Shown here: positions 31,291-50,877 of the stretch, in pieces
Layout of the letters: every line of letters starts with the position of its first letter
How positions within the stretch are numbered: the stretch's first letter is position 1
Origin: Salinispira pacifica
GTDB taxonomy: Bacteria > Spirochaetota > Spirochaetia > DSM-27196 > Salinispiraceae
NCBI RefSeq assembly: GCF_000507245.1
Contig: NC_023035.1
Coordinates: 2,209,501-2,273,500 of the forward strand
Length of the DNA stretch: 64,000 nucleotides
Reading direction: 5' to 3'
Position numbers and translations under genes: made by a program
The notes under the pieces: generated by a model
The model's database searches: none
Told to the model about the DNA's origin: nothing
Seen by the model: the letters and a program-made list of their open reading frames with translations, nothing else

Positions 31291-31570
31291 TGCGCACCTT
31301 CCGATAGTCGTCAAAAAAAAGCCATTGATGATCAAATGATTCATAATCACGAATGTGTTTTGAGACTGTATATACACGTTAATTTGAAAGAGGAAAGATA
31401 TGCAACATAAAGAATCGAATCTGGTATGACCAATTTTAGTTATTCAGTAAAATCAGTAAGGCAAAATACCGGAAGACTTATATGCGAAAGATTTTTCGCC
31501 CCATCCCTGTCATTTTGCGCTCGCCGGCTCGCGCCGAGGCCTCCGCTTCAAGTCCCATCATCTCATATAC

Positions 31571-31614: not shown

Positions 31615-31687
31615 TGGGCGAAGAGGGACTTGAACCCCCGACATCCTGCTTGTAAGGCAGGCGCTCTCCCAGCTGAGCTATTCGCCC
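31615..31687 (-). tRNA. tRNA-Val (anticodon TAC)
   Basis: Read on the minus strand: acceptor GGGCGAA pairs with TTCGCCC; D-arm GCTCAGCTGGGAGAGC; anticodon arm CTGCCTTACAAGCAG with TAC at the centre; T-arm GGGGGTTCAAGTCCC; discriminator A. 73 nt; CCA is not encoded. Confidence 0.98.
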
Positions 31688-49679: not shown

Positions 49680-49708
49680 TTGACAGTTTTTTTCCAATCC
49701 TGTACATT
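49680..49708 (+). promoter_or_regulatory. Sigma-70-type promoter of tRNA-Asn
   Basis: TTGACA (49680-49685), 17-bp spacer, TACATT (49703-49708), about 20 bp before the tRNA. Confidence 0.8.
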
Positions 49709-49728: not shown

Positions 49729-49801
49729 TCCCCTGTAGCTCAGCTGGTAGAGCAAATGACTGTTAATCATTGGGTCGTTGGTTCGAGTCCAACCGGGGGA
49801 G
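49729..49801 (+). tRNA. tRNA-Asn (anticodon GTT)
   Basis: Acceptor TCCCCTG with CGGGGGA, D-arm GCTCAGCTGGTAGAGC, anticodon arm ATGACTGTTAATCAT, T-arm TTGGTTCGAGTCCAA, discriminator G. CCA is not encoded. Its last 18 bases recur at the end of each downstream repeat. Confidence 0.98.
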
Positions 49802-49806
49802 CTAAA

Positions 49807-49842
49807 AAAGATCGGTTACCGAAAGGTGACCGATCATTTTTT
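49807..49842 (+). terminator. Terminator after tRNA-Asn
   Basis: GATCGGTTACC-GAAA-GGTGACCGATC followed by ATTTTTTAT: an 11-bp stem with GAAA tetraloop and T run. It stands between the tRNA and the first repeat. Confidence 0.9.
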
Positions 49843-49854
49843 ATGTCCAACACT

Positions 49855-50029
49855 GGACTCGAAGCTCCCGAAAGGCGCGAACGCTGTGAGCGCGCATCTT
49901 CAGGATGAAGATGCAGTGAGGGGGACGGCCTGCAGCGAAGCCACAGGACGTGGCTGAGTGGAAGGCGAGTCCAACCGGGGGAGTAAAAAAAAGCTGTTCG
50001 GGTTTATCCCGGACAGCTTTTTTTATTTT
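49855..50029 (+). ncRNA. tRNA-Asn-linked structured repeat, unit 1 (CsrA-sponge candidate)
   Basis: Predicted RNA module in a 185-bp tandem repeat. The outer stem is GGACTCG with CGAGTCC. Inside, hairpin 1 (49894-49914) has an 8-bp perfect stem and the loop AGGAU closed by C-G (CAGGAUG). Hairpin 2 (49939-49955) has a 6-bp perfect stem and the loop AGGAC (CAGGACG). Both match the CAGGA(U/C/A)G loop motif that CsrA/RsmA binds in CsrB-type RNAs. The module ends with the 18-base tRNA-Asn 3' copy (49966-49983) and a terminator (stem AAGCTGTTCGGG, T7). This unit differs from the others by CCCGAAAGG and by lacking ATG before GACTCG. Transcription, by read-through from tRNA-Asn or its own promoter, is inferred. 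Confidence 0.6.
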
Positions 50030-50039
50030 CGCAGAAGAT

Positions 50040-50214
50040 GGACTCGAAGCTCCCGAACGGCGCGAACACTGTGAGCGCGCATCTTCAGGATGAAGATGCA
50101 GTGAGGGGGACGGCCTGTAACGAAGCCACAGGACGTGGCTGAGTGGAAGGCGAGTCCAACCGGGGGAGTAAAAAAAAGCTGTTCGGGTTTATCCCGGACA
50201 GCTTTTTTTATTTT
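50040..50214 (+). ncRNA. tRNA-Asn-linked structured repeat, unit 2
   Basis: Same structure, exactly 185 bp after unit 1. Both AGGA-loop hairpins are unchanged; differs by CCTGTAACG in place of CCTGCAGCG between the hairpins. tRNA 3' copy at 50151-50168. Confidence 0.6.
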
Positions 50215-50224
50215 CGCAGAAGAT

Positions 50225-50399
50225 GGACTCGAAGCTCCCGAACGGCGCGAACACTGTGAGCGCGCATCTTCAGGATGAAGATGCAGTGAGGGGGACGGCC
50301 TGTAACGAAGCCACAGGACGTGGCTGAGTGGAAGGCGAGTCCAACCGGGGGAGTAAAAAAAAGCTGTTCGGGTTTATCCCGGACAGCTTTTTTTATTTT
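50225..50399 (+). ncRNA. tRNA-Asn-linked structured repeat, unit 3
   Basis: Identical to unit 2 by eye, 185 bp later; tRNA 3' copy at 50336-50353. Confidence 0.6.
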
Positions 50400-50409
50400 C
50401 TCACATGAT

Positions 50410-50584
50410 GGACTCGAAGCTCCCGAACGGCGCGAACGCTGTGAGCGCGCATCTTCAGGATGAAGATGCAGTGAGGGGGACGGCCTGCAGCGAAGCCACA
50501 GGACGTGGCTGAGTGGAAGGCGAGTCCAACCGGGGGAGTAAAAAAAAGCTGTTCGGGTTTATCCCGGACAGCTTTTTTTATTTT
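50410..50584 (+). ncRNA. tRNA-Asn-linked structured repeat, unit 4
   Basis: 185 bp later. AACGCTG replaces AACACTG, which keeps pairing with CAGTG through a G-U pair; TCACATGATG replaces CGCAGAAGATG before the outer stem. Both hairpins unchanged. tRNA 3' copy at 50521-50538. Confidence 0.6.
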
Positions 50585-50594
50585 CGCAGAAGAT

Positions 50595-50766
50595 GGACTC
50601 GAAGCTCCCGAACGGCGCGAACACTGTGAGCGCGCATCTTCAGGATGAAGATGCAGTGAGGGGGACGGCCTGCAGCGAAGCCACAGGACGTGGCTGAGTG
50701 GAAGGCGAGTCCAACCGGGGGAGCTAACAAAATCCCATATGCTGCTAAGCATGTGGGATTTTTTTA
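50595..50766 (+). ncRNA. tRNA-Asn-linked structured repeat, unit 5, with a different terminator
   Basis: 185 bp later with both hairpins unchanged. The tRNA 3' copy (50706-50723) is followed by GCTAACAAAA like the tRNA itself, and by a terminator of unrelated sequence (AATCCCATATGCT with AAGCATGTGGGATT and T7). Confidence 0.6.
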
Positions 50767-50772
50767 TACTCA

Positions 50773-50877
50773 TACAAGGTGGACTCGAAACCATATCGTG
50801 CGTACCGCAGCGGCATGGGCCGATGCGAGTAACGTATGAAAGATCCCGGGTGCGAACGCTGTGAGGGTGTATCCGGA
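50773..50877 (+). repeat. Decayed remnants of the 185-bp repeat
   Basis: TGGACTCGAA recurs near 50781, and GGTGCGAACGCTGTGAG near 50850 matches the core of the units. The hairpins and tRNA copy are lost. Confidence 0.6.

Follow-up and report, generated by a model that had tools for sequence, protein, structure and literature searches.

Identification of Structured Tandem Units Behind tRNA-Asn

The tRNA-Asn gene of Salinispira pacifica is followed by a tandem array of near-identical repeats, which raises the question of what these repeats are and whether the GGA-bearing hairpins within them titrate the regulator CsrA, as a preliminary description of this locus had proposed. Within the window (the whole 64-kb stretch of DNA that was analyzed, from a genome of 3,782,798 bp in a single contig), we identified five units behind tRNA-Asn that are spaced at exactly 185 bp and are 97-99% alike, in agreement with that description (Table 1). 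The first bases of each unit, GGACTCGAA, are the reverse complement of the tRNA T-loop (TTCGAGTCC), and its last bases, CGAGTCCAACCGGGGGAG, copy the tRNA-Asn 3' end. The preliminary description was silent on both the copy and the complement.

A hairpin scan recovered all ten loops as they had been described: CAGGAUG on an 8-bp stem in hairpin HP2 (GCATCTTC-AGGAT-GAAGATGC) and CAGGACG on a 6-bp stem in hairpin HP3 (AGCCAC-AGGAC-GTGGCT). On the plus strand of the window, hairpins with an NGGAN loop and at least five Watson-Crick pairs comprise these ten and one further GGGAA hairpin, with no others, against a mean of 1.3 per window expected from dinucleotide shuffles. Two such hairpins in one shuffled Asn unit occurred in 0 of 20,000 shuffles, and the fold of the unit has a z-score of -4.2. 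The ten loops are indeed constant; however, only 5 of 130 columns vary among the five units, so that loop constancy between such nearly identical copies is uninformative, and the evidence for selection comes from the other arrays described below. A closing stem GCUCCC/GGGAGU, seen in the minimum-energy fold of the Asn unit, was rejected as the family helix because it is not common to the other arrays, whereas the helix formed with the T-loop complement is.

The inter-unit terminators are symmetric (A-run, stem and T-run) and therefore do not fix the strand, which the preliminary description had given as the one with T-run terminators; the strand of the array is set by its tRNA linkage and by the tRNA promoter. 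No promoter was predicted between the Asn units by consensus scan; RNAs of the CsrB/RsmZ kind have a promoter of their own under BarA/UvrY (GacS/A) type control.

Table 1. Features of the tRNA-Asn array and related elements in the window.
Feature	Position	Strand	Basis or remark
Sigma-70-type promoter of tRNA-Asn (TTGACA-17-TACATT)	49680..49708	+	Consensus scan
tRNA-Asn (GTT), anchor gene	49729..49802	+	ARAGORN; Rfam 69.5 bits
Terminator-like hairpin, tRNA-Asn/unit 1 interval	49804..49841	+	
Unit 1 (5' complement of tRNA T-loop to copy of tRNA 3' end)	49855..49983	+	
Unit 2	50040..50168	+	
Unit 3	50225..50353	+	
Unit 4	50410..50538	+	
Unit 5	50595..50723	+	
Hairpin HP2, loop AGGAU, unit 1	49894..49914	+	Copies at 50079, 50264, 50449, 50634 (+185, +370, +555, +740)
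Hairpin HP3, loop AGGAC, unit 1	49939..49955	+	Copies at 50124, 50309, 50494, 50679 (+185, +370, +555, +740)
tRNA-Asn 3' end copy (CGAGTCCAACCGGGGGAG), unit 1	49966..49983	+	Present in all Asn units
Symmetric terminator after unit 1	49986..50024	.	Repeats at 50171, 50356, 50541
Terminator after last unit	50729..50766	+	Differs from the inter-unit ones
Decayed sixth unit: GGACTCGAA start, HP1-like GGTGCGAACGCTGTGAGGG, no closing tail	50781..50875	+	
Truncated unit behind tRNA-Val (31615-31687, -)	31474..31555	-	Covariance model, E 0.002

The Units Belong to a Structured RNA Family Linked to Spirochaete tRNA Genes

The S. pacifica genome has seven tRNA genes (Asn, two Pro, Met, and three Leu) that are followed by such units, with 26 clear ones in all. 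In a scan of the sequence downstream of its tRNA genes, the layout of the Asn array recurred at Pro-GGG (five units), Pro-CGG, Met, Leu-TAA, Leu-GAG, and Leu-CAG. Despite differing stems, the units behind these tRNAs follow a common plan of P1, HP1, HP2, P3, and HP3, in which P1 is the T-loop complement paired with the tail copy and HP1 has the stem GCGC-GA...GA-GCGC. HP2 presents a GGA loop in all eleven distinct units, at seven tRNA loci and on unrelated stems (AGGAU, UGGAU, AUGGAA, CGGAC, AGGAC, CGGAA, AGGAA, UUGGAU, and AUGGAU), and HP3 does so in 8 of the 11, the other three having ACGAY.

Several variants of this plan were observed. The Pro-CGG array has units of ~229 bp with an extra fourth hairpin, whose loop is GGA in some copies (GGCGC-UGGAA-GCGCC) and AGAAA in another. 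Behind tRNA-Phe there are three shorter, divergent units with tRNA-Phe tails. In the window, the decayed sixth unit of the Asn array holds a different hairpin module (GCGTACCGCAGCGGC...GCCGATGCGAGTAACG), which recurs near C1:2447700 and has a related version in the Leu-GAG array; of the unit behind tRNA-Val, the P1 5' strand and HP1 are left, and the remainder grades into unrelated sequence.

A covariance model (R2) was built from the eleven distinct S. pacifica units; the tRNA-Phe units do not match it. In its alignment both partners have changed in 16 of 25 pairs, a value reached in 0 of 500 shuffles, and covariation was 0.418 vs 0.157 in shuffles. R2 gives 26 strong matches in S. pacifica itself and matches 117 of 297 Spirochaetia genomes, many of them below E 1e-15, as well as a few genomes in other classes of Spirochaetota. 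Among 54 distant-family homologues, both partners have changed in 24 of 25 pairs, and pairing holds in 93.6% of cells, compared with 27-42% after sliding partners, these counts being biased towards R2 because the alignment was fitted to the model. The compensatory changes that the preliminary description had proposed to look for by covariance-model search are present. A plain DNA search of 60 relatives matched only tRNA ends: at the level of sequence the identity is too low, and it takes a structure model to see the family. Rfam 15 at gathering thresholds returned only tRNA in the window and 20 loci, with no such family, and a literature search turned up no relevant report of an RtT-like or tRNA-linked RNA in spirochaetes. 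Judged from these comparisons of sequence, the element is a previously uncatalogued structured RNA family behind many spirochaete tRNA genes. The isolated tandem sponge of the preliminary description gives way to a family spread across spirochaete tRNA genes.

To assess the coupling of each element to its own tRNA, we took the 64 distinct elements that the model found immediately behind a tRNA, at a distance of mostly 40-70 nt; the tRNAs concerned are those for Leu, Met, Ala, Ser, Pro, Arg, Gln, Asn, Gly, Thr, Trp, Glu, and Lys. An exact complement of the T-loop of the own tRNA stands at the start of 51 of the 64 (permuted mean 10.4, maximum 21), and 57 of the 64 carry a copy of the own-tRNA tail with at least 13 of 16 positions matching (permuted mean 3.8, maximum 12). 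The pattern of T-loop, 56-86 bases, and complement was found in 129 of 297 Spirochaetia genomes, and a reversed control pattern in almost none. Many pattern matches in f16 genomes were rejected as elements, being in fact tandem tRNA-Ser clusters.

Distribution of GGA Loops and csrA

The genome of S. pacifica encodes csrA (94 bits), on which the proposed role depends, together with fliW (125 bits), in the arrangement flgK-flgL-fliW-csrA. Its CsrA aligns to solved CsrA/RsmE over the core and has a C-terminal extension, which we take to be that expected of a FliW-controlled CsrA.

In csrA-bearing genomes, units detected by tRNA tail plus complement and filtered by strand carry a GGA hairpin in 52 of 54 cases, vs 22% of shuffles, and the same holds for 21 of 21 loci in such genomes that were found by pattern and missed by the model. 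Among near-full units of csrA-bearing genomes, taken from the families f32, f41, f44, and f45 and from two genomes outside the class, a GGA hairpin is present in 50 of 51 and two are present in 30; the loops are GGA penta- or hexaloops, often ANGGAN hexaloops. Comparable elements in other phyla have a GGA hairpin in 13 of 57 cases. An A(N)GGAX loop on a stem is the recognition rule of Csr/Rsm proteins, with the ANGGAX hexaloop as the highest-affinity form for RsmE and AGGAX pentaloops weaker (PMC4005645). The loops of the family fit this rule, most S. pacifica ones being AGGAX pentaloops. In the window's own order HP3 usually has ACGAN instead of AGGAN, CGA and GGA alternating at one position, and ACGAN loops should not bind CsrA.

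Eight genomes that lack csrA (G056, G099, G125, G145, G155, G163, G096, and G231) keep the element and have lost the GGA hairpins (1 of 11 units, that one an artefact loop). The first six of these belong to genus g27, with 71-75-nt forms that lack HP2 and HP3 and have variable apical loops; the loops of the other two include ACUU and ACCU (G096) and AGUAG and UAAC (G231). The minimal g27 form consists of P1, an HP1-like stem, and P3 only. The difference in GGA hairpins between csrA-bearing and csrA-less genomes has a Fisher p of 4e-9, to be read with non-independent units and few, phylogenetically clustered losses of csrA, about two of them independent. One counter-example, G267, lacks csrA even at E<=10 and keeps GGA in several units. 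Element and csrA also co-occur per genome (106/11/116/64, p = 1.5e-7, phylogeny not controlled), and many csrA-bearing genomes, including Borrelia-like small ones, have no detectable element. Taken together, the conservation of GGA on wholly different stems, the presence of csrA and fliW, and the loss of GGA in most csrA-less genomes considerably strengthen the predicted CsrA-titrating role of these tRNA-linked loops.

Comparison With Known RNAs

Besides the tRNA, the best matches on the Asn array at a relaxed Rfam threshold were PrrB/RsmZ (RF00166; 28.8 bits, E 2e-4, gathering 44) and CsrB (RF00018; 25.9 bits, E 5e-5, gathering 71), both below gathering. Like CsrB/CsrC and RsmX/Y/Z, the units combine several hairpins, each a stable stem with an A(N)GGAX loop, with an intrinsic terminator downstream, and they share the CAGGA(U/C)G loops of CsrB. 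Unlike these RNAs, each of which is a single sRNA gene, they are multicopy at tRNA genes and carry a tRNA 3' end and its complement, and the organisms that bear them use FliW. The units, which the preliminary description had called CsrB-type, are not members of the CsrB family, the frame being that of an RtT-like tRNA-tail repeat: they probably resemble CsrB/RsmZ in action and are not CsrB homologues by any test applied here.

The E. coli RtT/RttR element (RF00391) has the same frame, with ~178-bp repeats of the tyrT operon behind tRNA-Tyr, in which the complement comes first and the tRNA 3' end copy last, but its hairpin loops are GCA/ACA, not GGA, and it is not known to bind CsrA. RtT is a stable RNA processed out of the tRNA transcript. 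At gathering, RF00391 matched neither the window nor the 20 loci, while the E. coli control matched. Sponges made from tRNA 3' external transcribed spacers, such as 3'ETS-leuZ, are likewise decoy RNAs that derive from the part of the transcript 3' of a tRNA; 3'ETS-leuZ pairs with sRNAs, and the target of the units would be a protein. In Campylobacter jejuni, a flagellated bacterium with FliW, RNA titration of CsrA is exerted by the flaA mRNA (PMC4894983), so that the sponge there is a flagellin mRNA, whereas here the candidate is a tRNA-linked non-coding RNA. Leptospira genomes have no csrB/csrC homologues (PMC8668096). The earlier statement that no CsrB-like RNA is known in spirochaetes needs a caveat, as a candidate Csr-type ncRNA of Leptospira biflexa is mentioned at second hand (PMC8668096, citing Iraola 2016).

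A Putative CsrA Decoy and Its Alternatives

The best explanation, which we regard as probable, is that the units are CsrA-titrating decoy RNAs made from tRNA genes. The steps that we infer run from transcription through CsrA binding and titration to a link with growth and a direction of control. The tRNA promoter would drive the tRNA and then the units by read-through of leaky terminators, or a unit might be transcribed from its own start. Each unit would yield a structured RNA of ~120 nt, closed by the helix between T-loop complement and tRNA 3' end copy, and presenting CsrA with one or two hairpin loops of the A(N)GGAX type; paired GGA loops ~40 nt apart would fit the two sites of a CsrA dimer. 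With arrays behind several tRNA genes, several dozen sites would be available to titrate CsrA off its mRNAs, alongside the action of its protein antagonist FliW, and with 26 units, free CsrA would be expected to fall as tRNA transcription rises. Against this explanation, terminators stand between the tRNA and the units.

A different role for an RtT-like tRNA-tail RNA, for instance in tRNA 3' processing or the stringent response, with ASGAN loops that serve another protein or a tertiary contact, seems to us improbable, though it is the strongest of the alternatives. It would accommodate the ties of closing helix and tail copy to the own tRNA, the frequent CGA of HP3, and the existence in Clostridia, Collinsella, Patescibacteria, and E. 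coli of comparable elements whose loops lack GGA; it leaves unexplained why only csrA-bearing spirochaetes have a near-invariant GGA in HP2 and why most csrA-less ones lack it.

The arrays could also be DNA-level elements, that is, remnants of small mobile elements that insert at and regenerate tRNA 3' ends and are amplified by direct-repeat recombination, with a functionless RNA. Direct copies of the tRNA 3' end do bound each unit, and near-identical tandem copies suggest recent expansion. Furthermore, an extra model match in S. pacifica (C1:2447812) is a unit preceded by a tRNA-Arg(TCT) 3' tail, ~11.7 kb from the tRNA-Arg gene at 2436037, from which it may have been separated by insertion or rearrangement. 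However, compensatory changes in five RNA helices and conserved loops require selection on RNA, and the units, which are 71-150 nt, contain no integrase or transfer gene and no ORF conserved across them, so that we consider this origin quite unlikely. Least plausible of all is a mainly cis-acting role as terminators or attenuators of read-through from tRNA genes, which would suit the strong hairpin with T-run behind every unit and a unit 5' strand whose complementarity to the T-loop could let it base-pair with the tRNA as this is being made, but which does not account for the GGA hairpins and the csrA link, given that terminators alone would suffice.

A Wider Class of tRNA-Tail Elements

A pattern scan of genome contigs found repeated tRNA tails outside spirochaetes, with at least 66 matches, mostly in Clostridia; Collinsella, Pseudobdellovibrio, Patescibacteria, and Auribacterota are also among the matches listed. 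Such non-spirochaete elements (e.g., L254, L260, L273, L312, L322, and L344) have the same layout of tRNA tail and T-loop complement, without the GGA pentaloop pattern. The occurrence of tRNA-tail repeats in several phyla indicates that a broad class exists, within which CsrA-type loops mark the spirochaete branch. This is apparently an unnamed, bacteria-wide class to which the E. coli RtT belongs. It is conceivable, and we put it forward tentatively, that spirochaetes couple CsrA activity to tRNA transcription through a decoy-RNA branch of this class, in which only RtT has been named, with branches that differ in the partner of their loops and with loops that are lost along with csrA.

Control of CsrA in bacteria that have FliW is considered to be exerted chiefly by protein (PMC7652899, PMC4894983). 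If the decoy explanation is true, the spirochaete family would add an RNA arm to the FliW-CsrA circuit and would tie this circuit in a new way to tRNA synthesis and hence to growth. The csrA-less lineages that keep the element without GGA hairpins offer a ready natural experiment, and, with the tRNA-tail class present in several phyla, the long-standing puzzle of the E. coli tyrT repeats can be tested by comparison.
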